IMG/VR virus record: IMGVR_UViG_3300015373_000023
Span: 1 to 34,066 of that record
DNA from: a virus
DNA length: 34,066 nucleotides
Direction: 5' to 3' (one strand)
The notes under the pieces: model-generated
Told to the model about the DNA's origin: nothing
What the model saw: only the letters and a program-made list of their open reading frames with translations
Database searches by the model: none
Position numbers and translations under genes: made by a program
Shown here: one piece after another, positions 5,332-19,366 of the stretch
Layout: the number at the start of each line of letters is the position of its first letter
Position numbering within the stretch: the stretch's first letter is position 1

Positions 5332-5341
5332 CTTTCTTGTA

Positions 5342-5503: not shown

Positions 5504-5525
5504 AGTCACCTCCCCTCAAAATTGA

Positions 5526-5762
5526 TTACTTAGCGAAATGCCAGGTCACACCGAGATTCTCGCCCTCTTCTCCGCTAGGCTCGCGGTGAGGAATGTCGCC
5601 CTCGTCGTTTACAGCAGCGAAAGATGAAGTTCCGTTGTCATCAAACATGATCATCTCGCCATGCTGAAACGACAATCCTTGTACAGGCTTCTGGAAAACT
5701 AGGGCGTTGTGATTCTTGCCGTCGTTATAGACGACACGATATACTGCAGTCTTTCCGTCCAC
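5526..5762 (-). CDS. Hypothetical 78-residue beta-rich protein
   Basis: A small protein with alternating hydrophobic and polar residues (AVYRVVYNDGKNHNALVF) and an acidic turn region. No family recognised. Its ATG overlaps the end of the 106-residue gene (stop at 5762), so the two are coupled. Confidence 0.7.
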   Translation of the reverse strand: MDGKTAVYRVVYNDGKNHNALVFQKPVQGLSFQHGEMIMFDDNGTSSFAAVNDEGDIPHREPSGEEGENLGVTWHFAK

Positions 5763-6082: not shown

Positions 6083-6087
6083 AGTTC

Positions 6088-6192
6088 CTATTCTTCGCTC
6101 CGGTTGCGAGTTATACCAAGGCCATATCCAATTAGGAGACTAATTAGAACTACAAGAGCTGTTACGATAACTGTGACAATAATCCCGATCAT
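6088..6192 (-). CDS. 34-residue single-pass membrane peptide
   Basis: Nearly the whole product is one hydrophobic helix (MIGIIVTVIVTALVVLISLL, then GYGLGITRNRSEE). The ATG at 6190-6192 overlaps the TGA of the 36-residue ORF as ATGA. A longer reading from TTG at 6307-6309 in the same frame exists (73 residues), but the coupled ATG start fits the neighbouring overlaps better. It could be a holin-like or inhibitor peptide; that is speculation. Confidence 0.55.
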   Translation of the reverse strand: MIGIIVTVIVTALVVLISLLIGYGLGITRNRSEE

Positions 6193-6299
6193 GATTCTCG
6201 TCCTACCCAAGCCCATTCGCCCCAACGAGCATAATCGCTCCATCGAAGCGATGTCCAAAGACACCAAGGGCAATTCTCGGCTAGGAACAGAGTGATCAT
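6189..6299 (-). CDS. 36-residue tryptophan-rich ORF
   Basis: This short ORF starts with an ATG overlapping the TGA of the ssDNA-binding-like gene (ATGA at 6296-6299) and ends with an ATGA overlap into the 34-residue membrane ORF. The product has a CPWC pair and six tryptophans (WSDYARWGEWAWVGRES). Two perfect ATGA junctions argue for real translation, although the ORF is very short and uses a different frame from the alternative 73-residue reading. Confidence 0.5.
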   Translation of the reverse strand: MITLFLAENCPWCLWTSLRWSDYARWGEWAWVGRES

Positions 6300-6769
6300 G
6301 ATTGATCAAGTTCTGAATATTTCAACTCCAGAGGATCTTCTTGGATTGTTACATAGAGACTCTGAAGATATGCTTTGATTCCGCTCTTGTCGTTGACCGT
6401 CCAGGCATACGGACTAACGATCAAATCTACATTGATGATATCCGCCCAATCAAGCATCTCGATTTGACCTTCATCAATGTTCGTCCTTCCACGAGACGTG
6501 ATCAGGACGATACGCGGCGGGCGGCCTTTGAAGTTTACCGAGATGGGCAAATATGCCTGCGGTTCTTCTCTTCCTGCGTCTGCATCTTCTTCGCGAGGGC
6601 GCAACCACTTAACGTTCCAACCATCGGCAGCCATGTCTTCGGCTGTCTTGTCATCGAGAAGTACGGCGAAATTTCGATCACCTTCACGATTGTACTGGCC
6701 TTCTTTCCCAGCAAAATTACGAAAGATGATCCGAACACCCTCCATCAAAACCGTGTTATCCCTCGGCAT
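6296..6769 (-). CDS. Probable ssDNA-binding protein
   Basis: A 157-residue protein. The segment VRIIFRNFAGKEGQYNREGD followed by NFAVLLDDKTAEDMAADGWNVK, then YLPISVNFKGRPPRIVLI and VDLIVSPYAWTVNDKSGIKAYLQSL, matches my memory of a phage protein family annotated as single-stranded DNA-binding and rich in beta strands. It would coat ssDNA for the helicase-primase-polymerase encoded just upstream in the operon. The assignment is from recall and context, not from a unique motif. The gene is coupled by ATGA to the next ORF. Confidence 0.6.
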   Translation of the reverse strand: MPRDNTVLMEGVRIIFRNFAGKEGQYNREGDRNFAVLLDDKTAEDMAADGWNVKWLRPREEDADAGREEPQAYLPISVNFKGRPPRIVLITSRGRTNIDEGQIEMLDWADIINVDLIVSPYAWTVNDKSGIKAYLQSLYVTIQEDPLELKYSELDQS

Positions 6770-6947
6770 CGGTTTCTCCCGTCGCTTCCTGTATGATTCG
6801 TTCGGCTATGTAAGTTGACATCCAGTCGTCAATGGCGTCTTGAAGAGGTACTCCGTCTACCTTGGCCATAACTTTGAACATGCACATCATCGTCTTACCC
6901 ATCAGACGACCAAGCTCATGCACATCCTCGTCCGAAATTTCAGCCAT
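6756..6947 (-). CDS. Hypothetical 63-residue helical protein
   Basis: An acidic, mostly helical protein with several methionines (LGRLMGKTMMCMFKVMAKVDG). No family recognised. It overlaps the start of the ssDNA-binding-like gene by 14 nt, so they are probably co-translated. It may be a replication accessory subunit; that is inference from position only. Confidence 0.68.
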   Translation of the reverse strand: MAEISDEDVHELGRLMGKTMMCMFKVMAKVDGVPLQDAIDDWMSTYIAERIIQEATGETDAEG

Positions 6948-6949
6948 AA

Positions 6950-7168
6950 TTAGTCCTTATTAAGAAGAAGGTCGAGAGCAATCCGATCGAACTCACTTAG
7001 ATCCACATCTTGCTCATCACAAATATGAACGATGTATTGAGTCATGTCGAATAGCCTTGCATATTCACGTCTCTGTCGAGCAAGGTCCTTCATCAGAGAT
7101 CGTATGATGATTATTGACGCAATTTGTGTTCCGACTAAAATGCCGATAGCCGTTCGAACCTCAACCAT
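6950..7168 (-). CDS. 72-residue membrane-anchored protein
   Basis: The start I prefer is the ATG at 7166-7168, which has GAGGAG six nt upstream; a reading from 7183 would run further into the polymerase gene. The product begins MVEVRTAIGILVGTQIASII, a short membrane helix, then a charged cytosolic tail (KDLARQRREYARLFDM). It overlaps the end of the polymerase gene by 8 nt. Function unknown. Confidence 0.65.
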   Translation of the reverse strand: MVEVRTAIGILVGTQIASIIIIRSLMKDLARQRREYARLFDMTQYIVHICDEQDVDLSEFDRIALDLLLNKD

Positions 7169-10100
7169 TAACAAACTCCTCAAATGATCCGAAAGATTCG
7201 ATAGTCTTTATAGCTTCGGCTTTCAACTTCTCGAAATATGACATGTCAATTTTCAGATCTGTTATGGATTGAGCGATCTCGGCTTCAACCCATTTGTAAC
7301 CTTTGGTTCCGGCCACTGCGTAGTACTTATCATCCTTTACGCGGTAGAGCGTGCCACCTCCCTGTAAAACAGGTACAAAGCGACCAGTACGCCCAAGATG
7401 CCGCATGAGATGATAATCCAGAGCTTCATCTTCTTCGTGCTCCTCCCTATCAAGATACATTGTCCCTTGCACTACATTTTTACTTTCGCAGAAGTCATCG
7501 AAAGTAAGATCTTCTCCTGAAAACAGGGTTTTAAATATGTAGGGATGCTGAAATTGGGATCCTACAGCAGTCCAGGTATCACCTTTTCGCGCAATATATA
7601 CCGCATCGTTCACGAGACAAAATTTATCGTACGTTATCTCGTGTTCGAAATCATACCCGTATCGGGCACCATGTTCCTTAACGAAAGCGATTGCTCGTTT
7701 TGTTGCCCCGGGGATTTTTACGGAATCGGTCTTGATGTGTACTACCCTGTGGCCATTTTCCTGCAGGTCGTTTTTCAAATCGATCATGTAGAGAGCGCCA
7801 CGCTTAGCAACTATGTTATCCTTATTGCGATTATCTCGGAAAGGATTGGGAAATTTTGCCGAGGTCAATCCGTATACAATATTGATAACAATCTTTAGGG
7901 CGTATGCTAGCTTGTCTGCTCCATCTTCATTCTCAAGATATGGAGCTAAACGACCTTCGAGCATTTTCCTAGCCGAAGAAAAGTCTCTTCTTTTAATAGC
8001 CATACGAGCTTTTTTGAGATCCGAAAATTTTTCTGTATATTTCCCGAAGAGATTGAGGATCTCAATTGTCGTAGGGTGCATCGAAGCAATGTCCAGAAGA
8101 GCAACCTTCTTGTAGATTCCAGGCTCTGCGTAAACGTATCCACCTTCACCTGGATCTTCACCTCTATACGAGGATTTTCCGGCATCGAATTTGTATCCCT
8201 TGAATTCTTTACTCAGATCAGTATAGACAAAGGACCTCTGGGGATTTCGATCGTTGCCAAATATGATCTGTGCGGTATGTCTTTGTGTTGTGTCGTTGAT
8301 TGTCAATCCACTGAGTTCAGCCAAGATTTGTCGGGCAACGAAATCTTCCCAGCGATCTTCGAGCACAGCTTCCGTTGCTCGAACATCGTTGCAGCAATAT
8401 TCCACTACTCGCGACCAATCTTTTTCGTCTACTGGCTCGTCTAGCGGGAAATCCAACTCCATATGGTGGATACCGAGATCAATTTCAAATTTCTTAAGGC
8501 CTTGTTTGACAGAACTGATCTCCCAAACGTCGGCATAAGAAAGGTTATATGCTTGAGCAAAGAACGCATTTCGATTGTTGTCTATGACGATTTTTCTTGT
8601 TAACTCATAGAGTTTCTCGATGCTGTAACCCAAGACTGCAGCATAGAGAATATGATTGTCAAATCTACGGTTGTAGAAACCGACAAGCTTCAGTTTTGTC
8701 AGATTCTCAACCTCTTCTCTCGAAGGATTGATCATCCGAACAATGTTGTCGTCTCCCTTGAATTTCCAACAGATGACAAAGAGATTTGGGTAAACCTCAA
8801 TGTCAAATATGACCATACGATCATCGGTTACTTCGACAACAGCGTCAGCACTAACTTCCTCATCGGATTGGAACCTCATCGTCTGAACAATTCTCAGACA
8901 GTTGGAAGCCTGGTGCGTACTGTTGTTGGCAAAAGCCAAAATACGTGGTCGTAGGTCTGTGACGTCGTATTTCAGCCCTTCCTCATATGCTTCTTCTAGA
9001 ATATGAGCGATGAAATCCACCGATGGCTTGGTTCCTGGATGAATCTCTTTTCGCAGATTCCGCTCAATTAGCTCTCTAAGACCCTTTTCGGAAGTAATAG
9101 TCTTAGCCTTAAGCATCTTCTCCTTCTTCTTTTTAAGCGGGAGTCCACTGCCTATTTTGGCAACAGGCACAGCATTACATCGAGTTAACTTTCGACGTAA
9201 CGAGGCATCTCCCGTATACACCTTGATCTCGATGCCTTCGGAATATACCGATGCTAACTCGGTTGGATCCCCGAGATAAGTATAATGAAGATGTACACCT
9301 TTTCCAGATTTACTCAGCTCTGCATACGTAGCGGGCCACCTGCTTGCCGCCTCGAGATTTCGTTCAAGACTCACTTCTCCATCGGGGGTCTTCAAATCGA
9401 AATCGATGACGACATGTTTTTCAGGTACCCTTACGTAGTGAAGTTGAGAAGTGTCAATATCTGAAAGGGTAGACTTTACTCTTTCCCATTTTCTAAGAGG
9501 CGTTCCATCTTGGTTCGCCAGCTGAGCGGGACAGTCCGCAAGAAGCGAATCGAGTAGCGAATCATCTTCATCCATAACCAAAGAGAATGCCGGTAAGTTT
9601 TCATCACTTTCCTTAAGAACCTTGAACTTCTCAGCGTTGAATCCAGTATATAGACTACGAACGCGTTCACCGTCGACCTCTCCTCTATCTTTGAAATCAT
9701 CGAAATAGTTACGGAGCTCTTCGCGGATCTTGTATTGCGGACGCGCTCGATCGATGCCGCTTTCTATGCACCATTCCTTGTATAGCCCGTACGCCTGCTT
9801 CAAGGTTGTATAGTCTTGTTTCTTGAATAAATCGAAATATGCCTCAATGAAATTGAAGAAGACGTCGGTTTGAAGCATCATTTCCAGTGGACGATAGCCG
9901 TTGTAGTAATTCTTACCCATCTCCAAATATACTTGGAGACAGTGAGTAGCTATCGCACCTAGCTCGAAATCAATCTGACTCATCAACGTGTTATAGTGCC
10001 GAACCGGGATCTTAACGCCAGTTGGATGAATATCGATTAGTCTGCGAATTATTCCCGATTTGGCATCCGTGATCTTTACAGGTTGATTCGATCCGATGAA

Positions 10101-10913
10101 CAGCAATGCTTCAGCGCGGGAAGTATAACTCGGCTTGTACTTCTCATTCATCGTCATCTGCTCGTGGGAAACGATGGAATTTAGCCGTGTATTATCTTCC
10201 AACTTAGATAGATCACCGTCGTGCTGTATAGCAACAAGAGGGTTGTGTTTAAAAGCCTCCGTAGAAAACGTCCCATTTGAGCTTCCTAGGGCTTTCCCAT
10301 CGAATGTGGTGGTATATCCGTCGAACAATTTATGCAAGATGTTCAGAATAGTGGACTTACCGGATCCAGCGGGACCGTAGAATACGAAGAACTTTTGAAG
10401 TTTCTTAGAATCTCCCGCCACGATGGATCCGATAGCCCATTCTATCTTTGCTCGTTCTTCAACAGAATACAATGTTCCCACAAGCTCATCCCAAGCTGAA
10501 ATATCACCTCCCTCTAATGCGTAATTCAACCGCTTACTCGCATAGTCAGTTTTCTTTATTTCTGAGTTTGAAAACATGACTTTCGAGTCGAGGGGATGAT
10601 TATTATCACTGATATTGGCGAGGAACTTCTTAAATTGAGCCCAAGAATTGCTTTGGAATGACCGCATATAACGTACAATGTAGTTCATTCCTGTTTCTTT
10701 TCTCAATCTATCAGCTTCTGCTTGTAGATGTTCGTCTACCAATCGTTGAACATCGTACTCGTCACGAGACCATAGACCTTTTTCTTCGTCCCAAATAGCA
10801 TAAAAGGTTCGTCCTTGTACCATCAGATCCTGAGAGCGTCCCACGATAAAGTCGGGGTATAGTTCTATACCCTTATCTTTCGTCTCTTTAGTAAGGATCT
10901 GATAAAAATCCAT
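7161..10913 (-). CDS. Fused SF3 helicase / AEP-like primase / family B DNA polymerase
   Basis: A 1250-residue replisome protein. Residues 150-330 form an SF3/D5-type helicase: Walker A GPAGSGKST at 180-188 and motif C-like LLFIGSNQP about 270-278. Residues 500-590 look like an archaeo-eukaryotic primase: VIDFDLK at 502-508, SGKGVHLHY at 536-544 and IEIKVYTG at 561-568. Residues 700-1200 are a family B polymerase with proofreading: ExoI FDIEVY 703-708, ExoII GFYNRRFDN 745-753, ExoIII YCCNDVRAT 839-847, motif A DIASMHP 941-947, motif B K1007 to Y1014-G1015, motif C KTDS 1061-1064. The usual DTDS first aspartate is Lys; I recall the same variant in gut-phage relatives. The module order is reversed from ordinary primase-helicases. 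ATG at 10911-10913 with AGGAGG. Confidence 0.88.
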   Translation of the reverse strand: MDFYQILTKETKDKGIELYPDFIVGRSQDLMVQGRTFYAIWDEEKGLWSRDEYDVQRLVDEHLQAEADRLRKETGMNYIVRYMRSFQSNSWAQFKKFLANISDNNHPLDSKVMFSNSEIKKTDYASKRLNYALEGGDISAWDELVGTLYSVEERAKIEWAIGSIVAGDSKKLQKFFVFYGPAGSGKSTILNILHKLFDGYTTTFDGKALGSSNGTFSTEAFKHNPLVAIQHDGDLSKLEDNTRLNSIVSHEQMTMNEKYKPSYTSRAEALLFIGSNQPVKITDAKSGIIRRLIDIHPTGVKIPVRHYNTLMSQIDFELGAIATHCLQVYLEMGKNYYNGYRPLEMMLQTDVFFNFIEAYFDLFKKQDYTTLKQAYGLYKEWCIESGIDRARPQYKIREELRNYFDDFKDRGEVDGERVRSLYTGFNAEKFKVLKESDENLPAFSLVMDEDDSLLDSLLADCPAQLANQDGTPLRKWERVKSTLSDIDTSQLHYVRVPEKHVVIDFDLKTPDGEVSLERNLEAASRWPATYAELSKSGKGVHLHYTYLGDPTELASVYSEGIEIKVYTGDASLRRKLTRCNAVPVAKIGSGLPLKKKKEKMLKAKTITSEKGLRELIERNLRKEIHPGTKPSVDFIAHILEEAYEEGLKYDVTDLRPRILAFANNSTHQASNCLRIVQTMRFQSDEEVSADAVVEVTDDRMVIFDIEVYPNLFVICWKFKGDDNIVRMINPSREEVENLTKLKLVGFYNRRFDNHILYAAVLGYSIEKLYELTRKIVIDNNRNAFFAQAYNLSYADVWEISSVKQGLKKFEIDLGIHHMELDFPLDEPVDEKDWSRVVEYCCNDVRATEAVLEDRWEDFVARQILAELSGLTINDTTQRHTAQIIFGNDRNPQRSFVYTDLSKEFKGYKFDAGKSSYRGEDPGEGGYVYAEPGIYKKVALLDIASMHPTTIEILNLFGKYTEKFSDLKKARMAIKRRDFSSARKMLEGRLAPYLENEDGADKLAYALKIVINIVYGLTSAKFPNPFRDNRNKDNIVAKRGALYMIDLKNDLQENGHRVVHIKTDSVKIPGATKRAIAFVKEHGARYGYDFEHEITYDKFCLVNDAVYIARKGDTWTAVGSQFQHPYIFKTLFSGEDLTFDDFCESKNVVQGTMYLDREEHEEDEALDYHLMRHLGRTGRFVPVLQGGGTLYRVKDDKYYAVAGTKGYKWVEAEIAQSITDLKIDMSYFEKLKAEAIKTIESFGSFEEFVNG

Positions 10914-10923
10914 AATCCTCCTT

Positions 10924-11445
10924 CTAAAGATCCGTCATCTCGTTAACGTATGCCTGCATCTGAAACCAAATTTCTACCTGGGTTTGATCTCTTTCAGGAT
11001 TGTTCAGTGGAAAGAATCCGCCGTATCCATCATATCGATAATTTCTCCACACAAGGTTATAGAGAATTTCATCGATTCGATCGACATTTTCTTTCGTCAG
11101 TTCATCGGACATCTTGTTCAATCGAAGATTCTTGATCAACCTCCATGCCCAGTGACGATCATCACCACCCGCTATGAAAGCTACTCTTCGACTGAGACCA
11201 ATTAGCAACTCGAGAATCGTACAACCATCGAGCTGCAATTTCTTGGCTTTGATCTTGCTACCCATGAATTCTGCACGGAGATCCAAACCGTCCTGTAGAC
11301 GGTTGTTATCATTCGGAACCGTCCATACAAATTCCAGGTTGTGCATCCGTTCGAACAAGCCTCTATACGACTTACCATTTCTTGGCGTATCGACTTGTCC
11401 TATCAACCACTCATAGTATTCAAAATCAATCGGTTGCAGAGTCAT
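10924..11445 (-). CDS. Conserved phage protein, unknown role
   Basis: A 173-residue protein. It has signature segments I recall from a family widespread in gut and Gram-positive phages: YRGLFERMHNLEFVWTVPND-type start, LDGCTILELLIGLSRRVAF in the middle, and GGFFPLNNPERDQTQVEIWF near the end. The function of that family is unknown to me. It lies 10 nt before the replisome fusion and overlaps the end of the 246-residue membrane protein by 20 nt, so it is probably expressed with both. Confidence 0.75.
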   Translation of the reverse strand: MTLQPIDFEYYEWLIGQVDTPRNGKSYRGLFERMHNLEFVWTVPNDNNRLQDGLDLRAEFMGSKIKAKKLQLDGCTILELLIGLSRRVAFIAGGDDRHWAWRLIKNLRLNKMSDELTKENVDRIDEILYNLVWRNYRYDGYGGFFPLNNPERDQTQVEIWFQMQAYVNEMTDL

Positions 11446-12166
11446 TTCGATCGAGGCCTAGCATTTCCTCTTCGTAACTCGCCGGGGATCGGCAAATCTC
11501 CATCTCCAACTCCAGCTTCTGGTTACGAACGAACACGACATCGATGTCGTCTGATCCGTGACCAAACCTGAGGTTGTCCTTACCGACAACTTCCTGAGCA
11601 TGAGGAAGCGGTCTACCGTCCTCGTCGCAAAGAACGTCGTCACCGGCATAATAGGTGTAGGTCACCTTTGAATATCCGGCTTCTGATTCGTTGAACTCAT
11701 CCTGATGGATGATGTAAGGCACTTCTGGATCTCGAGCTCTCAACTCAAGAGCATAGTCCCAGCCATCATCCTTCGACTTTCCTCCATCGTAGGTGACTAC
11801 CGGAGGCGCGCGGAGAGGTTCCTGAACAGGAACTGGAGGTCTCGTCGGTCGAGGTGGCTCTTCGACTTCGACAGCTGTCGAATATCCTCGCTCCTCTACG
11901 AGTTCTTCGACGGAAGGCTTCTGCCGAGCCTGATAAGCCTCTCGAATCTTCTCGACTTCCTCTGCACTCTCCTTGAAGGCTTCGGCTCGGATCTTTTCCT
12001 TATTGAACCGATAACCCCAATAGAACCCCAATGCTGCGCCAATTACCATCCCTCCAAGAACATATCCAACAGCCGACGTGTTGATTTTCCTTGTCGCCTG
12101 GGCAACCTCTTCGAGATTGGTCGCGACTTCTTCCACGACTCCTTCTACAACACCTTCAACGGCCAT
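11426..12166 (-). CDS. Membrane-anchored 246-residue protein
   Basis: The N-terminus is an acidic helix (EGVVEGVVEEVATNLEEVAQ), followed by a membrane helix around residues 32-52 (VGYVLGGMVIGAALGFYWGY), a coiled charged region, a proline-rich linker (PPRPTRPPVPV) and an acidic soluble domain with aromatic strands. The glycine-zipper-like helix is typical of proteins that associate in membranes. It sits with the DUF6353-like gene 9 nt upstream, so they may form one complex. No family recognised. Start with AAGGAG five nt upstream. Confidence 0.7.
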   Translation of the reverse strand: MAVEGVVEGVVEEVATNLEEVAQATRKINTSAVGYVLGGMVIGAALGFYWGYRFNKEKIRAEAFKESAEEVEKIREAYQARQKPSVEELVEERGYSTAVEVEEPPRPTRPPVPVQEPLRAPPVVTYDGGKSKDDGWDYALELRARDPEVPYIIHQDEFNESEAGYSKVTYTYYAGDDVLCDEDGRPLPHAQEVVGKDNLRFGHGSDDIDVVFVRNQKLELEMEICRSPASYEEEMLGLDRNDSATD

Positions 12167-12175: not shown

Positions 12176-13072
12176 TTAACCTTCGAAGTCGATTCGGTCG
12201 TAGATCACGCCATCGACATTGAAGTCAAGAAGGATAGATCCTTCAAAGCCGTTGACGAAATCCCGGGCAACTTGAGTATCCCCGTCAAATACGCCGAAAT
12301 TGATGAAATTATCGGTCTCGCCGTTTGGTGTGAGAATCCAACCGACCACTGCTCCAGCCTTGGATCTCGGAATTCCGAGCATGTCGTAGACTTCATTCAG
12401 AAACACATGCCCTCGAGAATGGAGCAGATCGTTCGCGTAGTTCTGCTGGCACTTAAGAAAGATCAGATTGTACTCGGGCTCCTTGTTCCACGATGAGGAG
12501 GATGGATCAAAGAATCGAGCATAGATCGACGGCTCGCCGAACCCAACACGAGTAACTTTCTTCTTCTTACCGGTCTCCGGATCTTCGATCGTCACTTCAC
12601 GAGTGCCATATCGGAAGTCTCGATCCTGATCCTCACCGTACTTCTCGACTACACGAGCTCGGTATTCGCTGAACCCCTTTTCCAGCGCCGTATATGCCGA
12701 CATCAGCGCGGCATTACGCTTGGTTAGGATATTGTGGGAGCTCGTCAAGGCATAGACAGAAAGTCCACCGAGAACGATAGCCGGAGCATACGCCCTTACA
12801 ACCTTGACGCCGGTCTGGAAATAGATGAGCGAAATATCCCGCTGGCGATCCTTCTCGCTGTAATCGGGATGATCCAACGTCTTTGCCGTCTCGAGCTTGT
12901 CCTTTGCTTCGCCGACGACTTCGTCCATCTTCAAAGTAGCCCGACAAGCGAGGACAGTACTCCCCACCATGCCCACGATACCTGCTCCAAGAAGAAGTCC
13001 CGGAGAACTTTTCTGCAAAAGCAGAGTATTACGGGCAACCTGTCTTCCGATTACCTCTGGGACAAACTTCAT
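12176..13072 (-). CDS. DUF6353-like membrane protein, copy 1
   Basis: A 298-residue protein with two probable membrane segments (GLLLGAGIVGMVGSTVLACRA near residue 25-45, and AYAPAIVLGGLSVYALTSSHN about 115-135), then a soluble C-terminal domain. It is a paralogue of the gene at 15096-15893: shared features are G-I/V-VG-VG---L--RA, a second helix followed by K-AAL, an EY--VVEK-G segment and the C-terminal GW--N-- region. I believe this matches DUF6353, a phage family of unknown function. The ATG overlaps the TGA of the 71-residue gene. A role in envelope modification or superinfection exclusion is possible but unproven. Confidence 0.75.
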   Translation of the reverse strand: MKFVPEVIGRQVARNTLLLQKSSPGLLLGAGIVGMVGSTVLACRATLKMDEVVGEAKDKLETAKTLDHPDYSEKDRQRDISLIYFQTGVKVVRAYAPAIVLGGLSVYALTSSHNILTKRNAALMSAYTALEKGFSEYRARVVEKYGEDQDRDFRYGTREVTIEDPETGKKKKVTRVGFGEPSIYARFFDPSSSSWNKEPEYNLIFLKCQQNYANDLLHSRGHVFLNEVYDMLGIPRSKAGAVVGWILTPNGETDNFINFGVFDGDTQVARDFVNGFEGSILLDFNVDGVIYDRIDFEG

Positions 13073-13994: not shown

Positions 13995-14264
13995 CTAACT
14001 TTCGACTACCTCGGGCTCAGTAGCGTCGGTGTTACGCTTCTGCAACCAAGTCTTGCCGTTCTCCATCGCTTCTCCGACGTACTCCGATCCGCGATCGGCG
14101 ACGAGCAGTCCGAGAACCGTACTTCCAGTCCAGACCACGATCTTGTTTGCGACCGTGACCGGCATGGTCGTGTTGTTCTTGACGACGTCACCAACCACCT
14201 TCGTAGTACTTGCAGTTACGAGGGCCTGAACAGCAAACTTAACGACAGAAAATGCACCCAGCAT
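13995..14264 (-). CDS. Small membrane protein, 89 residues
   Basis: It has two hydrophobic stretches: SVVKFAVQALVTASTTKVVG near the N-terminus and VANKIVVWTGSTVLGLLVAD in the middle, then a charged tail. No family recognised. It forms a complete cassette: promoter motif at 14290-14314, AAGGAG ribosome site, ATG at 14262-14264, and an intrinsic terminator after the stop. The cassette form recurs at 18.2-19.4 kb. Confidence 0.75.
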   Translation of the reverse strand: MLGAFSVVKFAVQALVTASTTKVVGDVVKNNTTMPVTVANKIVVWTGSTVLGLLVADRGSEYVGEAMENGKTWLQKRNTDATEPEVVES

Positions 14265-14289: not shown

Positions 14290-14314
14290 ATTATATGGAA
14301 TGATTATTCTGCGA
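14290..14314 (-). promoter_or_regulatory. Cassette promoter motif P1
   Basis: The minus strand carries TCGC (14314-14311), 15 nt, then TATAAT (14295-14290) followed by GAA. The same layout occurs at seven other sites with exactly the same spacing. It overlaps the stop of the 177-residue gene and drives the 89-residue membrane protein. Confidence 0.75.
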
Positions 14315-14837
14315 TTTTCGCTTCTCCAGAAGCCAAACGAGCCCCAAGAGCTCTGAGTTCATCTTCTGACATTGAGTCAAATACGTGTCTTGGAATGATT
14401 TCAGGTTCGGGTTTCTCTGCTACGGCCAATGCGGGCTTCTTTTCCTCGCCGCTAGCTACTTTTGCTGCTTCTTCGGCCATTCCAGCAGGGATAACTCCGT
14501 TGATAAACTCGATTGCTGCATCCGTTTTTGTGACCAATTCCATGAAAAGCACCGAATATGCTTCGGTTGACTCGAATTCGTCACGCAGCTGCTGGTTCTT
14601 GATGAATCGACGACCATCTTCCGATTTCTGACCATAGGCGCCCAGGATGATATTCTTGAATTCTGCGATGATGCTCTTACCATCCTCAGCTGCGACAATT
14701 CGTTTCAAAGCTTCAGACAAGCCGCCTTGATGGCTCATTTCGAGCTCGACTAGCTCTGCCTTAGACAAATGGAAGAAAAAATCTTCACTAACTTCTTCGC
14801 CGTTGAAGTCTGTGTACGTAATTGTCTTCTTGAGCAC
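14304..14837 (-). CDS. Conserved phage protein, chaperone-like (uncertain)
   Basis: A 177-residue protein. The start GTG at 14835-14837 has a GGGAG site. The product reads TITYTDFNGEEVSEDFFFHLSKAEL, then LKRIVAAEDGKSIIAEFKNIILGAYGQKSEDGRRFIK, and ends in a low-complexity acidic tail (EPEIIPRHVFDSMSEDELRALG). I recall this pattern from gut-phage proteins sometimes labelled tail assembly chaperone. Here it lies 15 kb from the tail genes, in the membrane cassette region, so the label is doubtful. Its stop lies inside promoter P1. Confidence 0.65.
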   Translation of the reverse strand: MLKKTITYTDFNGEEVSEDFFFHLSKAELVELEMSHQGGLSEALKRIVAAEDGKSIIAEFKNIILGAYGQKSEDGRRFIKNQQLRDEFESTEAYSVLFMELVTKTDAAIEFINGVIPAGMAEEAAKVASGEEKKPALAVAEKPEPEIIPRHVFDSMSEDELRALGARLASGEAKIAE

Positions 14838-14848
14838 GTTCTCCCTTT

Positions 14849-15064
14849 CTAAACTGGCTCTAGCGGCTCACGCCAATTCGGAGGAACAGGTCTAGTCGAG
14901 GCCCATCGCACCGCTTCATCAATGCAATGTGCGTCGACAAGACAATATCGAAGGTTTTGCTTCATCTCGATACCTTCACCGAGATCACGAGTACGCGATA
15001 CCACGCCGATTTCTTCGTCAGGACGCGTTTTACCGCATACATGACAAGACCATTCAAGACTCAT
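14849..15064 (-). CDS. 71-residue zinc-binding-like protein
   Basis: I prefer the ATG at 15062-15064 with GGGGGA eight nt upstream; ATG at 15073 or 15115 are alternatives. The product starts MSLEWSCHVCGKTRPDEEIG and continues NLRYCLVDAHCIDEAVRWAS, giving CxxC and CxxxxxC groups that may bind one zinc. Small proteins with a CDVCGK-RPD pattern are common in actinophages; their function is unknown. It lies between the second DUF6353-like gene and the 177-residue gene. Confidence 0.7.
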   Translation of the reverse strand: MSLEWSCHVCGKTRPDEEIGVVSRTRDLGEGIEMKQNLRYCLVDAHCIDEAVRWASTRPVPPNWREPLEPV

Positions 15065-15095
15065 AACCGTCATCCCCCATCCAGGGCTGGCAGTT

Positions 15096-15893
15096 TCAAG
15101 ACCAAGCCTTGTCATAGTCGGGAAGTGGCTGTCTGGAGAAATCGATTGCGATGCACGGTCGCTGATCCTCAGACATCACTGTCGAGAACTTCACTTCCAT
15201 GTGATTGTTCATGTTCCAACCGACAGTGTCGGTGTAATGCGTAGGCGGCAATCCGATCTCGTCGTAGAAATGTGACAGGCTACAAGACATGTAGTTAATG
15301 ATCTCGTAGTTGACCTTGTTCTCGGCACGCTTGACATCTTCCATGGTACTTCTGAAATATCGCCCAGTAAGCATGTCGTAGAAGAGAACTTGACCGTCTC
15401 CAACGAGAATCACTTCATTAGACGACGGGGGCTGCTTGTTGACGCGATCCTGGGCGATCTCGTCTCTGATCTTCTCGTCCTGACGCGCTCCGAGCTTCTC
15501 GATGACCTTATCTTTGTACTCCGTGAGAGCTCGCTCGGAAACTGCTGTCGCGATTGTCAAGGCGGCGATCTTCTTCGAGGAAATACGATGCGCCAGGATG
15601 ATGCTCGTAACCGTAATGACACCGGTTGCCACAGGCGGTAGATATTGAATCCAAACCAACTTCGTCTTCTCGGTCTTTGAGAGCTCAGTGACATGCGTCT
15701 CCGGGAACTTCAGATCTTTCTCTCGATCACTTCGCTCTGCTTCGATGATCTGGGCGGCCTTGAATGATGCACGTCCCGTCAAGACAGCTGTACCAACCGT
15801 TCCAACTACCCCCACTGCGGTAAGAATAGTGGTAGAATTGTCGGTCACCAAGAACTTTGCTCGATCGACAATCTGAGTCAATCCAGTTACCAT
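15096..15893 (-). CDS. DUF6353-like membrane protein, copy 2
   Basis: A 265-residue paralogue of the protein at 12176-13072. It has a membrane segment TAVGVVGTVGTAVLTGRASFK near the N-terminus and a second (VATGVITVTSIILAHRISSK) around residue 90-110, then a soluble region (LTEYKDKVIEKLGARQDEKI; CSLSHFYDEIGLPP; VGWNMNNHMEV). I start it at the ATG 15891-15893, preceded by AAAGG; an upstream in-frame reading to 15956 overlaps the 51-residue gene in another frame and lacks a good ribosome site. It is probably expressed from promoter P2 with the 51-residue protein. Function unknown. Confidence 0.75.
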   Translation of the reverse strand: MVTGLTQIVDRAKFLVTDNSTTILTAVGVVGTVGTAVLTGRASFKAAQIIEAERSDREKDLKFPETHVTELSKTEKTKLVWIQYLPPVATGVITVTSIILAHRISSKKIAALTIATAVSERALTEYKDKVIEKLGARQDEKIRDEIAQDRVNKQPPSSNEVILVGDGQVLFYDMLTGRYFRSTMEDVKRAENKVNYEIINYMSCSLSHFYDEIGLPPTHYTDTVGWNMNNHMEVKFSTVMSEDQRPCIAIDFSRQPLPDYDKAWS

Positions 15894-15903
15894 CTTTGAC
15901 CTT

Positions 15904-16059
15904 TCAATATAGCGGGAAACAGCGGTTCGAGTTTCGATTTCGCATCTCACGGACAAAGATCCAGATCAACCACAATCCCCATGTCAAAAAGACCATGAAG
16001 ACATCGCCGAGAAACTTGAAGAAGCCGTAACGCTTCTGTGGGGCAACGCAAATATACAT
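15904..16059 (-). CDS. 51-residue membrane protein, family RYGF copy 1
   Basis: A short protein with one membrane helix: QKRYGFFKFLGDVFMVFLTW, then GLWLIWIFVREMRNRN. It is clearly related to the 40-residue protein at 18076-18198; both share RYGF, D-FM-F-T, GLWLIW-FVRE and a basic tail. It starts at the ATG 16057-16059 with an AGGAGG site and is the first gene after promoter P2 and its folded leader. Such basic, one-helix peptides could alter the host membrane or a membrane complex; this is inference. Confidence 0.75.
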   Translation of the reverse strand: MYICVAPQKRYGFFKFLGDVFMVFLTWGLWLIWIFVREMRNRNSNRCFPLY

Positions 16060-16072
16060 TTACACCTCCTGA

Positions 16073-16139
16073 AAAAAAATAGAGGGCGAGGTACGACTCT
16101 AATGGTCGCGTCGGAATGCTCGTAGAGCACTCCACCTCT
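16073..16139 (-). ncRNA. Folded leader with U-tract downstream of P2
   Basis: Directly after promoter P2 the transcript can form a three-way junction: an outer AGAGG/CCTCT stem (about 16135-16139 with 16082-16086), an arm GAGTGCTC/GAGCATTC with one minus-strand G-U, and a CGAC/GTCG arm. A run of eight U follows, then AGGAGG and the ATG of the 51-residue gene. This resembles an attenuator or a small terminated RNA. Confidence 0.6.
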
Positions 16140-16164
16140 ATTATACTGTGCGTTTTTCTTGCGA
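16140..16164 (-). promoter_or_regulatory. Cassette promoter motif P2
   Basis: TCGC at 16164-16161, 15 nt containing GAAAAACGC, then TATAAT at 16145-16140. Here the box is followed by AGAGG, the outer stem of the folded leader, rather than GAA. It overlaps the stop of the 104-residue gene and lies before the 51-residue and DUF6353-like genes. Confidence 0.75.
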
Positions 16165-16455
16165 GCCTGCTAGTACTCGGTTGAAGCTCTCGAACGATTT
16201 TGTAGCCTCACGAGCAGCATCGCTTATACCGATCATTGCTCGAGTAAATCCATTGACCTGCAGAATGAACCGAAGGTGCTTACGATATGCCTCCATCTCG
16301 AGCTCATCGGCAACACGCATACGTGCACGAACTCTCTGACGGCGGCGGCGATGGTTCCACTCCATCCAGTCGGCGTACCGCTCACCGAAATGCCAGAGAA
16401 GAAATATGCCGGTCAAGGCGAGAACAGCGAACAGCAGATCGACCCCGTTGATCAT
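16141..16455 (-). CDS. 104-residue membrane protein
   Basis: It starts at the ATG 16453-16455 in an ATGA overlap with the upstream 74-residue gene, with AGGAG six nt before; a longer reading from 16524 lies mostly within that gene. An N-terminal helix (INGVDLLFAVLALTGIFLLW) crosses the membrane; the rest is very basic and helical (RRRRQRVRARMRVADELEME). Function unknown. Confidence 0.72.
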   Translation of the reverse strand: MINGVDLLFAVLALTGIFLLWHFGERYADWMEWNHRRRRQRVRARMRVADELEMEAYRKHLRFILQVNGFTRAMIGISDAAREATKSFESFNRVLAGSQEKRTV

Positions 16456-16676
16456 GACGGCTCCTTCAGCTTGGCGTGAAGAGTCCACACCATTTTCGAG
16501 TCCAGAGTTTCCTCGTCCGAACACACTCCGTGGATCTCAGTCATCCTCCAAGCACCTTTCCCCGACAGAAGAGCAGAACACACGGAATGAAAGGCTTCTA
16601 CAACATCCGTTGGATGACCCTCGGCAACAGCTTGAAGCTCTCCCGTTTCTAGAAGAGTGAGATCCTGGAAAATCAT
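16452..16676 (-). CDS. Hypothetical 74-residue protein
   Basis: A soluble protein with no recognised family (TLLETGELQAVAEGHPTDVV, MTEIHGVCSDEETLDS). The ribosome site and start (AGGAGCCGTCATGAT) are repeated letter for letter before the next gene, suggesting local duplication of the start region. It follows promoter P3 and its folded leader. Confidence 0.65.
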   Translation of the reverse strand: MIFQDLTLLETGELQAVAEGHPTDVVEAFHSVCSALLSGKGAWRMTEIHGVCSDEETLDSKMVWTLHAKLKEPS

Positions 16677-16697
16677 GACGGCTCCTGATGGTCGGGA

Positions 16698-16784
16698 AAG
16701 AAAAAAAAGAAGGGGCGTATAAGACCCGGCGAGGCCTAAGTCTTATACAGGACACGCTCAATGCACGTCCCACATTATCCCTTC
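16698..16784 (-). ncRNA. Folded leader with U-tract downstream of P3
   Basis: After promoter P3 the transcript can form an outer GAAGGG/CCCTTC stem, an arm GGACGTGC/GCGTGTCC whose two wobbles are G-U only on the minus strand, and a 9-bp arm GTATAAGAC/GTCTTATAC. A run of nine U follows. This repeats the plan of the leader after P2. Confidence 0.62.
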
Positions 16785-16809
16785 ATAATAAGACGTGTTT
16801 TTTCTGCGT
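16785..16809 (-). promoter_or_regulatory. Cassette promoter motif P3
   Basis: ACGC at 16809-16806, 15 nt, then TATTAT at 16790-16785 followed by GAAGGG. It overlaps the stop of the 63-residue gene upstream and lies before the 74-residue gene. Confidence 0.68.
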
Positions 16810-17000
16810 TATATCTTGGCGCTCCAAGCGTAGATGGCGGCTCGACGGAGAGTATCTGCCCCGACATAGACGATTGTACAAAGAATAATGCTTCGAGTAA
16901 CTCGCTTTATGATATGGTCAATATCTATTGGCTGAATATCAACGGACTCGATGTCTCCATCCTTGACCATCTTGATCTGAAGCGACCTATTTTTGAACAT
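16809..17000 (-). CDS. 63-residue membrane protein
   Basis: The N-terminal half is charged (DIESVDIQPIDIDHIIKRV). It is followed by a hydrophobic helix (TRSIILCTIVYVGADTLRRA). No family recognised. It overlaps the end of the 59-residue gene by 14 nt, and promoter P3 covers its stop codon. It is the last gene of the unit that starts at promoter P4. Confidence 0.65.
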   Translation of the reverse strand: MFKNRSLQIKMVKDGDIESVDIQPIDIDHIIKRVTRSIILCTIVYVGADTLRRAAIYAWSAKI

Positions 17001-17166
17001 CCTTATATTTCTCCTCGAGGCGCTTAACTTCGATGTCTACGTCTTCTTGCCGCATGAGTCCGTGATCTGCAGCAGCTTGCATCCCCATGACGTTAAGATA
17101 GTCATTGAGGATTTCCTTTTGCTCGTCGGTTAGTTCACCTTTCCAACCGATTCTCACGGTACTCAT
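16987..17166 (-). CDS. Hypothetical 59-residue protein
   Basis: A soluble, helical, acidic protein (WKGELTDEQKEILNDYLNVM; DVDIEVKRLEEKYKDVQK). It starts at an ATG at 17164-17166 with a GGGGG site upstream. Adjacent genes are the 66-residue protein upstream and the 63-residue membrane protein downstream. Function unknown. Confidence 0.68.
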   Translation of the reverse strand: MSTVRIGWKGELTDEQKEILNDYLNVMGMQAAADHGLMRQEDVDIEVKRLEEKYKDVQK

Positions 17167-17175
17167 TTTGACCCC

Positions 17176-17376
17176 CTAGATCACATTATTGATTTCGATG
17201 GAGAATTCCTCGTGCTCCTGAAAACTGCCGTCCGTACCAAAACTCCGGAAAAACAGATTGCCACCCGCATCAGTGAACCGAATGAACAAGCGGCCACCCT
17301 TGAAAGCAAATGCCACGCTCGAAAGGGTTGTGTTCATGATATGTTCCAGTAGGGCGCGAAGTTGAAGAGCACTCAT
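17176..17376 (-). CDS. Hypothetical 66-residue protein
   Basis: An N-terminal helix (LQLRALLEHIMNTTLS) is followed by beta strands (VAFAFKGGRLFIRFTDAGGN). No family recognised. A strong AAGGAGG site lies before the ATG at 17374-17376. It is the first clear gene downstream of promoter P4 and the large folded region. Confidence 0.7.
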   Translation of the reverse strand: MSALQLRALLEHIMNTTLSSVAFAFKGGRLFIRFTDAGGNLFFRSFGTDGSFQEHEEFSIEINNVI

Positions 17377-17394
17377 AATTCCTCCTTTAAAAAT

Positions 17395-17940
17395 ATGCTG
17401 AGGGGATTACTAGCTCCTAGATAGCATAGGCACGTTCCTTTAACGCCCTTACAGGCAAGGCGACCGTGCGGCCTATCGACTTGTCTAGCTGCAATCCAAT
17501 AGGCTTACACTAAACAGGATTCATCGGCTTTCGCGGATAATCCCCTCAACCTTTGAAAAATATTAGGAGAGAGTTTCGCTGCGGTCGCCCTCCGGAAGGC
17601 AGTTGCAGCCTGCGGTCTTGCACCACCCCATCTAACTGCTCTCTCCTAATCTGGGCCTGACCTACCCTTTTCAGATGAGTCACGTTTAATCGGCCTTGGA
17701 TAAACCGAACCCAGATCTTTTCCAATCCCTTAACCAGAGCCTGTGGAGCGTTTAGTAAGTAGCCTATTTTTTCGGACGGCCAATCCGCGGGCTTACTGTG
17801 CACGTAAACCTCCAGTATACCTTACTCCACGCCGCGTCCCCGCACAACCAGGTGAACGATTTGTCCCTGCGGTGTTGTGACCGGAGGTTTTGTCGTTCCA
17901 TCATACACAGGCCCTGGTTAAAGGATCGGGCAAACAAAAA
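17395..17940 (-). ncRNA. Multi-domain folded non-coding region
   Basis: Four hairpin-closed domains lie almost back to back. Domain 1: 17399-17409 with 17538-17548 (11 bp), with nested CTAGA/TCTAG, ATAGGC-CACG and CGCCCTT stems. Domain 2: 17562-17573 with 17639-17650 (12 bp perfect), inside which GCAGTT/AACTGC pairs. Domain 3: 17649-17655 with 17710-17716 and an inner GTTTA/TAAAC. Domain 4: 17729-17745 with 17906-17923 (G-U on the minus strand), with nested AGTAAG, AAACCTCC and CACAAC stems. Promoter P4 lies upstream. No known ribozyme, tRNA or riboswitch core was recognised. A GTG-initiated 85-codon ORF (17546-17803) crosses it. Confidence 0.6.
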
Positions 17941-17997
17941 GGAGAAGGTACGAGCGAATTATTTCTTCTTCATATTCGCACATAGTGTACCTTCTCT
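17941..17997 (-). ncRNA. Folded leader with U-tract downstream of P4
   Basis: AGAGAAGGTAC right after promoter P4 pairs with GTACCTTCTC, with an inner GCGAAT/ATTCGC hairpin. TTTTTG follows. It repeats the promoter-hairpin-U-tract layout of P2 and P3 and precedes the 560-nt folded region. Confidence 0.62.
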
Positions 17998-18022
17998 ATT
18001 ATAGTAGATGTTTTTATCGCGA
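17998..18022 (-). promoter_or_regulatory. Cassette promoter motif P4
   Basis: TCGC at 18022-18019, 15 nt containing TAAAAACA, TATAAT at 18003-17998, then AGAG. It follows the terminator of the 40-residue gene and would transcribe the folded region and the genes at 17376-16809. Confidence 0.75.
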
Positions 18023-18026
18023 GTGA

Positions 18027-18065
18027 CAAAAAAGAGAACCTTGTATAACAGCTCTCCTTTTTGAG
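18027..18065 (-). terminator. Intrinsic terminator after the 40-residue gene
   Basis: The minus strand has GGAGAGC, a short loop, GGTTCTC, then TTTTTT. The pairing is weaker than in neighbouring terminators but the U-run and position 10 nt after the stop fit. Confidence 0.6.
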
Positions 18066-18075
18066 TTGCATGTTT

Positions 18076-18198
18076 CTAGTAAGCGGCGTTACGACGTCCC
18101 TGAATCTCACGAACGAACACCCAGATCAGCCACAGACCTGCAGTAATGAAGGTCATGAAGCAGTCCATGATGAAGTTCCCGAATCCATAACGACTCAT
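18076..18198 (-). CDS. 40-residue membrane protein, family RYGF copy 2
   Basis: The product has one membrane helix: MSRYGFGNFIMDCFMTFITA, then GLWLIWVFVREIQGRR. It is a paralogue of the 51-residue protein at 15904-16059. The cassette is complete: promoter P5 at 18228-18252, AGGAGG before the ATG at 18196-18198, TAG at 18076-18078, then a terminator. Function unknown. Confidence 0.75.
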   Translation of the reverse strand: MSRYGFGNFIMDCFMTFITAGLWLIWVFVREIQGRRNAAY

Positions 18199-18227
18199 AA
18201 CTTCCTCCTTATAGAAAATTACATTTC

Positions 18228-18252
18228 ATTATAAGGAGTGTTTTTCCTGCGA
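18228..18252 (-). promoter_or_regulatory. Cassette promoter motif P5
   Basis: TCGC at 18252-18249, 15 nt containing GAAAAACA, TATAAT at 18233-18228, then GAA. It lies just after the upstream terminator and 30 nt before the ATG of the 40-residue membrane protein. Confidence 0.78.
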
Positions 18253-18253
18253 C

Positions 18254-18290
18254 AAAAAAGAGAATTCCATGGTTAGGAACTCTCTCTTTT
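18254..18290 (-). terminator. Intrinsic terminator after the 60-residue gene
   Basis: On the minus strand AAAAGAGAGAGTTCC pairs with GGAATTCTC followed by TTTTTTG. It begins 4 nt after the stop at 18295-18297 and directly abuts promoter P5. Confidence 0.78.
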
Positions 18291-18294
18291 GATA

Positions 18295-18477
18295 CTACGA
18301 GCGAAGCGCAGCAACGGGCTTCAGGATGGTCGTCTTCACGATGTCGAGGTTCGTCCTGCGGATCATCTTGATGGCCTTGACCAACACCTTCTCAGCAACG
18401 AGGATGTAGATCATGCCAACGATGGTCCAGAGGATGCCTCTGAGCAGCATGAAAGCAATTCTTCCGATGAAAACCAT
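18295..18477 (-). CDS. 60-residue membrane protein
   Basis: A long hydrophobic stretch fills the first half (VFIGRIAFMLLRGILWTIVG followed by MIYILVAEKVLVKAI), then a basic tail (KMIRRTNLDIVKTTILKPVA). It is an independent cassette with promoter P6, an AAGGAG site, and its own terminator. No family recognised. Confidence 0.72.
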   Translation of the reverse strand: MVFIGRIAFMLLRGILWTIVGMIYILVAEKVLVKAIKMIRRTNLDIVKTTILKPVAALRS

Positions 18478-18500
18478 TGTTTTCTCCTTTAGTAGATTTC

Positions 18501-18525
18501 ATTACATACCGTGTTTTTTTCGCGT
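18501..18525 (-). promoter_or_regulatory. Cassette promoter motif P6
   Basis: ACGC at 18525-18522, 15 nt containing AAAAAAACAC, TGTAAT at 18506-18501, then GAA. Both boxes depart by one base from the commonest form, but the spacing is unchanged. It drives the 60-residue membrane protein. Confidence 0.7.
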
Positions 18526-18533
18526 GTTTTAGG

Positions 18534-18564
18534 TAAAAACTAAAGCCCCCGAAGGGACCTTAGT
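18534..18564 (-). terminator. Intrinsic terminator after the 97-residue gene
   Basis: The minus strand has ACTAAGGTCCC, a TTCG loop, GGGGCTTTAGT and TTTTT. Two wobbles are G-U on the minus strand. It lies 3 nt after the stop of the 97-residue gene. Confidence 0.85.
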
Positions 18565-18566
18565 CT

Positions 18567-18860
18567 TTAAATCGCTTCAATCTTCTGGAAATCTAGGTTG
18601 TACTCATCGACGAATCGAAACAGCTCGTTGAATCGTTTTCCTTCCACGACTATGAACGTGCTACGTCTGTGAATCGGCGGCATCTCCCACACCAGGTAGT
18701 TCTTGACATCGTTCTTGACATTAGGAACCATGTCATAGATCGTTTTCAAGACTTCTAGCTTGGTGAGAGTTACAAAGTCGATTTCCCAGTTAGTAACAAA
18801 CTCGAGTAGGGAAGCAACGTTCTCGGAGGTCAGTTCGACCGCCCATAAAGTGCGTTCCAC
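18567..18860 (-). CDS. Hypothetical 97-residue soluble protein
   Basis: No family recognised. The product looks like alternating helices and strands (TSENVASLLEFVTNWEIDFV; RRSTFIVVEGKRFNELFRFV). The start is GTG at 18858-18860 with an AAAGGA site. It is a self-contained cassette: promoter P7 upstream, terminator at 18534-18564 downstream. It is one of the few products in this region without an obvious membrane helix. Confidence 0.7.
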   Translation of the reverse strand: MERTLWAVELTSENVASLLEFVTNWEIDFVTLTKLEVLKTIYDMVPNVKNDVKNYLVWEMPPIHRRSTFIVVEGKRFNELFRFVDEYNLDFQKIEAI

Positions 18861-18886
18861 GATAATCCTTTCAATAGAAAGATTTC

Positions 18887-18911
18887 ATTATATGCGATGT
18901 AATATCTGCGA
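18887..18911 (-). promoter_or_regulatory. Cassette promoter motif P7
   Basis: TCGC at 18911-18908, 15 nt, TATAAT at 18892-18887, then GAA. The spacer lacks the usual A-run. It drives the 97-residue gene. Confidence 0.72.
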
Positions 18912-18918
18912 TTTGAGC

Positions 18919-18945
18919 TAAAATTTCCCCCCGGGGATTTTTTGA
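18919..18945. terminator. Possible second terminator-like hairpin
   Basis: A near-palindrome with AAAAT, a C-run, a G-run and ATTTT can form a hairpin followed by a U-run on either strand. It sits between the terminator at 18975-19013 and promoter P7, perhaps as a back-up stop. Confidence 0.45.
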
Positions 18946-18974
18946 GATAGAAAAAAAATACTAGATGTTAGGAA

Positions 18975-19013
18975 AAGAAATATGAAAGGCCGCGTTTAAC
19001 GACCTCTCATATT
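18975..19013 (-). terminator. Intrinsic terminator after the 95-residue gene
   Basis: The minus strand has a stem AATATGAGAGGTCG with CGGCCTTTCATATT, then TCTTTTCC. It starts about 20 nt after the stop at 19033. Confidence 0.78.
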
Positions 19014-19032
19014 CCCTCTCCTGAAATTTTCA

Positions 19033-19320
19033 CTATCTGAGCCGGAACACGAAACCCAGCGCCTTCGAAGTGATCACGTTCACATTCTCATGCTTGATGA
19101 TCAGAATGATTCCGAGTAGATTCGCGGCAACGGTGAGCATCGTCTCCTTGCTGACGGATGATGGCTTTTCTTTCTCCATCATGTCGTTTAGCCTTTCAAC
19201 GACGTTCAACGTCTTTACATAATCTTCGGACGGAATCTGTTCTGTCTTCAACCAACTGATCGTGCGTTCGAGTTCACTTTCGAGCATGCGTTGATGTTTC
19301 GGTATCTCCTTTTCGAACAT
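19033..19320 (-). CDS. 95-residue protein with C-terminal membrane helix
   Basis: I start it at ATG 19318-19320 (MFEKEIPKHQRMLESELERT) with GGAGGAGG upstream. An in-frame ATG at 19353 exists, but its codons would be the TATAAT box of promoter P8, so it is very unlikely. The N-terminal two thirds are a charged helix; the C-terminus has a hydrophobic stretch (MLTVAANLLGIILIIKHENV). No family recognised. It is a full cassette with its own promoter and terminator. Confidence 0.75.
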   Translation of the reverse strand: MFEKEIPKHQRMLESELERTISWLKTEQIPSEDYVKTLNVVERLNDMMEKEKPSSVSKETMLTVAANLLGIILIIKHENVNVITSKALGFVFRLR

Positions 19321-19341
19321 AGTCCTCCTCCAGTAGAGTTC

Positions 19342-19366
19342 ATTATACGCCATGTTTCACTTGCGA
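19342..19366 (-). promoter_or_regulatory. Cassette promoter motif P8
   Basis: TCGC at 19366-19363, 15 nt containing GTGAAACA, TATAAT at 19347-19342, then GAAC. It overlaps the stop of the 83-residue gene, so the tail operon reads into the cassette region unless stopped. Confidence 0.75.

Follow-up and report, generated by a model that had tools for sequence, protein, structure and literature searches.

Eight short sites on the minus strand of a 34,066-nucleotide (nt) fragment of a viral genome (34 kb of IMG/VR record IMGVR_UViG_3300015373_000023, hereafter the window) belong to one transcription start signal that recurs in hundreds of related phages whose bacterial hosts differ widely. Each site consists of a T/ACGC tetramer, a spacer of exactly 15 nt and a TATAAT-like box. 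Together they appear to represent a phage-wide promoter class, and its most likely reader is the phages' own two-barrel RNA polymerase, a protein of family phrog_4291.

The sites lie between the tail genes and the gene for a DNA primase/polymerase, at 14290..14314, 16140..16164, 16785..16809, 17998..18022, 18228..18252, 18501..18525, 18887..18911 and 19342..19366. Six combine TCGC with an exact TATAAT, and the other two carry ACGC with a variant box, TATTAT at 16785 and TGTAAT at 18501. The pattern WCGC-N15-TATAAT occurs six times in the window against 0.07 expected from shuffles, none of which reached six. A weight matrix trained on relatives returns the same eight sites only (20.4-37.6 bits) when run over the whole window, with no further site of at least 5 bits on either strand. 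A sequence-only reading of this DNA had listed the eight sites on this strand with 15 nt between tetramer and box, and had noticed none in the structural or replication arms; both observations hold, the latter for this window by the matrix scan of both strands.

The DNA primase/polymerase gene (7161..10913, minus strand), which lies outside the motif, served as the query for finding relatives. It matches 413 phage records, 252 of them over at least 80% of its length, from phages of Gordonia, Rhodococcus, Arthrobacter, Streptomyces, Curtobacterium and Lactococcus and from uncultured phages. TCGC-n-TATAAT was counted on both strands of 82 related loci (1.6 Mb; 80 IMG/VR loci plus phages ReqiPoco6 and Petito) for n from 5 to 30. 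A spacing of 15 gives 253 occurrences on the gene strand and none on the opposite strand, and any other spacing gives 0-4. A matrix trained on 259 TCGC-N15-TATAAT sites, and partly circular for those sites, finds 520 sites of at least 12 bits on the gene strand, none on the opposite strand and one in reversed sequence. At least one site is present in 50 of the 51 IMG/VR loci that have at least 8 kb upstream of the DNA polymerase gene. Across all 80 IMG/VR loci, 331 sites are upstream of this gene, 1 is inside it and 87 are downstream, with none on the opposite strand. No site was found in the left arm of Petito (1-11,999) or of ReqiPoco6 (1-29,999), where the genes for lysis, packaging, head and tail are located. 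Conservation in relatives, which the sequence-only reading had left to be checked, is borne out by these counts, and its proposal of a private regulon is supported. Its boxes and spacing were also right, whereas its motif was too short: a logo of 248 distinct sites gives a full consensus of about TCGCARAAAWWACANGSCNTATAAT followed by GAGACC, in which TCGC is followed by A or G, some positions are A/T, the C in the ACA of the spacer is invariant, and TATAAT is followed by GARA and then C-rich sequence.

Firmicute phages keep the arrangement with other letters. Lactococcus phage P118 has nine WACA-N5-TATAAT-R sites and none on the opposite strand, with TTTT often replacing TCGC; Lactococcus phage 1706 has twelve TACA-N5-TATAGT/TATAAT-R sites, again with none on the opposite strand. 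In Faecalibacterium phage FP_oengus the sites mostly read ACGC/GCGC-GAAAAA...-CTTTAT-GRRR. The pair CGCG...CTTTATG occurs there 11 times at the conserved spacing and 0 times at every other spacing tested (8-23), and a wider pattern gives 14 forward matches (the one at 20207 looks like chance) and no reverse match. The architecture of the motif is stable across bacterial phyla and its letters drift with the phage. Three contigs binned as Acidobacteria, Saccharibacteria and Bacilli (L238, L241 and L242) hold 6-12 sites each; they are probably phage or prophage pieces and would widen the host range of the promoter.

The motif is almost certainly a real transcription start element, and the sequence directly past the box bears on where transcription would begin. 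In a set of 525 distinct sites, which also underlies the -35, -10 box and Shine-Dalgarno counts below, the first and second bases after the box are both purines at all 525. In the logo set, selected by a regular expression of which this base is not part, the first base past the box is G in 86% and A in 13%. Stems of 7 or more pairs that join a T-run to promoter-proximal sequence were sought at 504 sites, and at 37 of them such a stem closes a short RNA with a T-run. The 5' arm starts at the base after the box in 31 of the 37 (15 plainly, 16 with extra pairs between box letters and the T-run) and elsewhere in 6; these counts treat related RNAs as independent and are to be read as a tendency rather than as a probability. 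When the proximal 45 nt were shuffled, each of 20 replicates gave 2-10 such stems, whose offsets were scattered. Because the closing stem starts at that base in so many cases, the first base after the box is predicted to be transcribed and to be +1 itself. The sequence-only reading had expected starts 6-9 nt past the box; the stem test points to the first base instead.

Three of the window sites head such predicted small RNAs, all on the minus strand and all folding better than shuffles. Small RNA A (16073..16139, 67 nt, z -3.5) would start at a predicted +1 of 16139, below the site at 16140, and in its centroid structure the 5' AGAGG pairs with CCUCU before the U-run. Small RNA B (16701..16784, 84 nt, z -5.0) follows the site at 16785, with a predicted +1 at 16784 and a 5' GAAGGG that pairs with CCCUUC before the U-run. 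Small RNA C (17936..17997, 62 nt, z -3.8) follows the site at 17998, with a predicted +1 at 17997; here GAGAAGGUAC pairs with GUACCUUCUC before the U-run. No Rfam family matches the window at E up to 1. In ReqiPoco6 and phage 1706, transfer RNA (tRNA) genes are enclosed by promoter-to-terminator stems of the same kind. Elsewhere, small RNAs with promoter starts at about 4121 in locus L029, 2405 in L035, 377 in L066 and 23298 in L092 contain a stretch like a tRNA T-arm without reading as whole tRNAs, and may form a tRNA-like family of phage RNAs. Two different phages (L040, about 247; L019, about 3287) have small RNAs of another class under the same promoter, with a core in common.

The sequences downstream of the sites also look like transcription units. 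At 412 of the 525 sites a Shine-Dalgarno sequence and start codon follow within 120 nt (median 26 nt), and the remaining targets include terminator-closed small RNAs and tRNAs. A repeated, intergenic and one-directional element might instead be some other DNA signal, for replication, packaging or a repressor, but this reading is very improbable given where the sites lead. Between the tail/lysis genes and the replication genes, the promoters would control small genes and small RNAs as a regulon of their own. Several relatives have a further site immediately ahead of an operon of VRR-Nuc nuclease, Cas4 and polymerase genes (ReqiPoco6 73858, Circum 54406, Gordon 54252, Linda 50502, Scap1 38952 and FP_oengus 27683), an arrangement that would allow positive autoregulation and a self-amplifying supply of polymerase.

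The motif is not a sigma-A promoter, because it has no -35 element and its box drifts while spacing and architecture stay. Across the 525 sites, a TTGACA-like hexamer at 16-18 nt matches in 5-6 of its 6 positions at no site and in 4 of 6 at 28 (5.3%, against 10% in the control), and the best TTGACA match is no better than at random positions. The lack of a TTGACA-type -35 remarked on for the window is therefore borne out over the whole set. The box is an exact TATAAT at 343 sites and varies at the rest, second position included; A is second in 476 and T is last in 509. TATAGT is common in Streptomyces phage Rima and in phage 1706, TTTAAT stands at 5 of 8 sites in Curtobacterium phage Eevee, and CATAAT stands at several sites of an oral phage. 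In FP_oengus, 12 of the 14 pattern matches have CTTTAT or TTTTAT, and none of the 13 matches counted there has A in second position (boxes CTTTAT, TTTTAT and TTCTAT). Resemblance to sigma-A and sigma-70 promoters lies in the TATAAT-like box; the differences are the missing -35, the variation of the essential A and a predicted start directly after the box.

Host RNA polymerase with sigma-A could still start at TATAAT if a phage activator bound to TCGC/ACA stood in for the -35, an arrangement that we regard as rather unlikely. The exact boxes at 343 sites would suit it, as would the GARA past the box, which is reminiscent of a sigma-A discriminator, and core proteins of unassigned role that are common to all these phages could be activators. 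It fits poorly with the CTTTAT and TTTTAT boxes of FP_oengus, TTTAAT of Eevee and CATAAT of the oral phage, with a start predicted directly after the box and with a spacer core shared across phages from different phyla. More of the evidence is accounted for by a phage-encoded polymerase than by a phage activator acting on the host polymerase.

A host transcription factor or alternative sigma that reads the TCGC box, one of the readers suggested by the sequence-only reading, is far less probable still. Most sequenced carriers do infect Actinobacteria, whose regulators are generally known to be diverse, but the architecture is common to phages of Gordonia, Rhodococcus, Arthrobacter, Streptomyces, Curtobacterium, Lactococcus and Faecalibacterium, and many of the Curtobacterium and Faecalibacterium phage sites lack the second-position A that sigma-A needs. 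The strict pattern occurs in just 16 stretches of a collection of 84,980 bacterial genomes (as many species), against at least 120 viral stretches, and on this scarcity the host-factor reading was rejected. Two of the bacterial matches, both in Streptomyces genomes, were considered as host genes under a phage promoter, and this was rejected also: they are spacers in arrays of the CRISPR (clustered regularly interspaced short palindromic repeats) type. One genome has a single promoter spacer (NZ_LMWH01000236.1, 3422-3453), and the other has two among six spacers read by eye (NZ_BMMU01000088.1, about 2841-2881 and 3073-3110); the promoter is a multi-copy, conserved target for such spacers.

The proposed reader is encoded at one end of the related genomes examined, where VRR-Nuc and Cas4 genes accompany a protein of about 900 residues annotated as an RNA-dependent RNA polymerase or as a helix-turn-helix (HTH) protein; it is gp92 in Gordonia phage Petito and gp98 in Arthrobacter phage Circum. 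In P118 and 1706 this gene is separated from the nuclease genes by others, and the oral phage record has it split between several reading frames. The protein matches phrog_4291. The catalytic motif DxDGD, as DFDGD, is present in all 15 aligned polymerases and is invariant in an alignment of 43 sequences whose members were selected for holding it. Alignment with YonO, the RNA polymerase of phage SPbeta, gives about 20% identity over its global length, with the aspartate triad aligned. Near both termini there are matches to HTH or sigma-region-4-like domains, most of them below the Pfam cut-off. A phmmer search of the Petito polymerase against solved structures gave no match. A first AlphaFold model, built from 13 sequences (predicted local distance difference test, pLDDT, 65.4), had weak fold matches only. 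A model built from 43 sequences (pLDDT 79.9; predicted template modelling score, pTM, 0.58) has as its best solved match QDE-1 (E 6.9e-10, Z 15.5, root-mean-square deviation 4.6, 354 aligned, residues 229-720), and it matches the phage polymerases P32 gp64 (Z 14.0) and P74 gp62 (Z 13.7). The model points to a single-chain two-barrel RNA polymerase of the QDE-1/YonO kind with HTH motifs, and DNA-dependent RNA synthesis is its predicted activity.

Polymerase and motif travel together. The polymerase is found by tblastn in 250 phage records, four of them from Microbacterium phages, with host tallies nearly those of the DNA polymerase. When 26 viral contigs of at least 40 kb were fetched by the promoter pattern alone and then searched for phrog_4291, 25 had it. 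Among the 30 records nearest by DNA polymerase, 21 match, one of them by its HTH stretch only, which leaves the polymerase in 20; the rest may be fragments. The nearest relative of all (L011/G016) encodes it. Of the 15 bacterial genomes with a strict match, 8 have at least two matrix sites and 5 of these have the polymerase, while the 7 with one site have none. ReqiPine5 (1-50,000) and Listeria phage P35, two phages for which absence of the polymerase is taken from annotation, have 0 sites.

Several observations weigh against recognition by this polymerase. The window itself lacks the polymerase gene; the 34-kb fragment ends before that region, and the gene presumably lies in the missing part of the phage. 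One of the 26 motif-fetched contigs (G062) and one of the 51 loci (L028) do not fit, and both may be fragments. The box is still TATAAT in most relatives and is usable by host sigma-A too, and the stem counts have the dependence mentioned above. In addition, all 12 compared genomes also share the DNA polymerase, a helicase, VRR-Nuc, Cas4, phrog_4303, phrog_4079, a DUF6353 membrane protein and structural genes, so the motif might be read, or its reading assisted, by another core protein. Since co-occurrence does not single the polymerase out, we infer its recognition of the motif, which we consider likely. Among the shared core proteins only the polymerase has a transcription-enzyme fold together with HTH matches; a domain search of phrog_4303, phrog_4079 and the DUF6353 protein found no HTH. 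It is unlikely that a separate subunit supplies the specificity and recruits the phage polymerase to the motif. The candidates would be the roughly 80-residue phrog_4303 protein, which is encoded directly after the polymerase and is conserved beside it in all 12 genomes compared, or another core protein; no HTH or other DNA-binding domain was found in phrog_4303, and the polymerase has HTHs of its own.

If the phage polymerase is the reader, its promoter would have a consensus of about TCGC-A-N6-WACA-N5-TATAAT followed by GARA, with +1 as the first base after the AT-rich box. One of its HTHs, near the N-terminus or at the C-terminus, would probably read the TCGC box, and the AT-rich box would be the melting region. 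In TCGC phages a helix of the second N-terminal HTH is NESSVRALL-like; in P118, which has TTTT as its box, it reads SPGSVTNYA, and in 1706 SESSVRNWI. With one clear departure among these, the variation is only suggestive of recognition of the upstream box by this HTH. The ReqiPoco6 record carries the note '1706_gp75 structural protein', and the current 1706 record names this protein an RNA-dependent RNA polymerase; from this one annotation note, the polymerase may be carried in the virion. More tentatively, a virion-carried polymerase with built-in sigma-like HTHs might recognise the three-block promoter alone and, on entry, transcribe a region, devoted to taking over the host, that encodes small membrane proteins and new small RNAs by the dozen.

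In the window, the remaining five sites head open reading frames (ORFs), all on the minus strand. The site at 14290 (predicted +1 at 14289) heads ORF 13995..14264, whose product (89 residues, phrog_7539) is only moderately hydrophobic. The site at 18228 (predicted +1 at 18227) heads a hydrophobic ORF of about 40 residues starting at 18198, and that at 18501 (predicted +1 at 18500) heads ORF 18295..18477, a probable membrane protein (60 residues, hydrophobic). From the site at 18887 (predicted +1 at 18886) the downstream ORF is 18567..18860, with a GTG start and a product of 97 residues that is not hydrophobic. The site at 19342 (predicted +1 at 19341) heads ORF 19033..19320 (95 residues, phrog_5818), which has a moderately hydrophobic stretch near its C-terminus. 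The earlier statement that most units encode membrane proteins was thus overstated: three of the eight sites (16140, 16785 and 17998) head terminator-closed small RNAs, and of the five ORFs one product is not hydrophobic and those of 13995-14264 and 19033-19320 are only moderately so. Two DUF6353 (phrog_2152) proteins are encoded on the same strand at 12176-13072 and 15096-15893. Between small RNA C and ORF 17176-17376, about 500 bases of the minus strand (17400-17930) contain no convincing gene and look structured.

Comparison with known systems places the proposed enzyme and its promoter in context. QDE-1 of Neurospora, a eukaryotic RNA/DNA-dependent RNA polymerase of RNA silencing, is the best fold match of the predicted model, with the difference that the aligned range leaves out the HTH parts of the phage polymerase; QDE-1 is not known to use promoters. 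A T7-type promoter is a single compact motif whose end coincides with +1; it has an AT-rich region and starts on a run of purines. The motif described here would work alike, while the proposed enzyme matches two-barrel polymerases and the motif is longer and in three blocks.

One close parallel is Thermus phage P23-45, which has experimentally mapped promoter starts of a virion polymerase (gp96) and a non-virion polymerase (gp64), with motifs upstream of the mapped starts that are present in relatives with the polymerase and absent from those without (PMC10770324). Both systems pair two-barrel phage polymerases with a conserved motif tied to polymerase-bearing relatives. The P23-45 motifs are described as AT-rich and GC-rich (PMC10770324). 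No tape measure protein is fused to the polymerase considered here. SPbeta YonO is likewise a phage-encoded, single-chain, DNA-dependent RNA polymerase with an aspartate triad. According to the 2017 paper, it starts one late operon, in contrast to the many promoters for small genes found here, and its promoter sequence and need for extra factors remained to be determined (PMC5467207). A matrix scan of SPBc2 from 40 to 90 kb returned nothing at 8 bits or more. On its minus strand at 60146, AATTACATACCC resembles the P118 promoter spacer core and is a possible core-like stretch. It lies within a long annotation-free stretch upstream of yonK, the reported YonO start region, and is not tied to a mapped start; we make no claim for it.

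No description of this motif, or of a promoter for this polymerase group, was found in titles and abstract beginnings of open-licence papers. What is new here is a probable class of promoters read by phage two-barrel RNA polymerases; phage-polymerase promoters with mapped starts were already known from P23-45 (PMC10770324). The polymerase considered here falls in the same broad lineage as YonO, and should it indeed recognise the three-block promoter on its own, the YonO-like lineage would have its first defined promoter class. With several hundred ready-made promoters in about 250 phage records, many of them of phages that have laboratory hosts, it can be tested directly how a single-chain relative of cellular RNA polymerase recognises promoters. 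Predictions of start sites, of a class of RNAs and of an autoregulatory loop also follow from the motif. Such a pair of polymerase and promoter could also give a compact, host-independent expression system for Actinobacteria.

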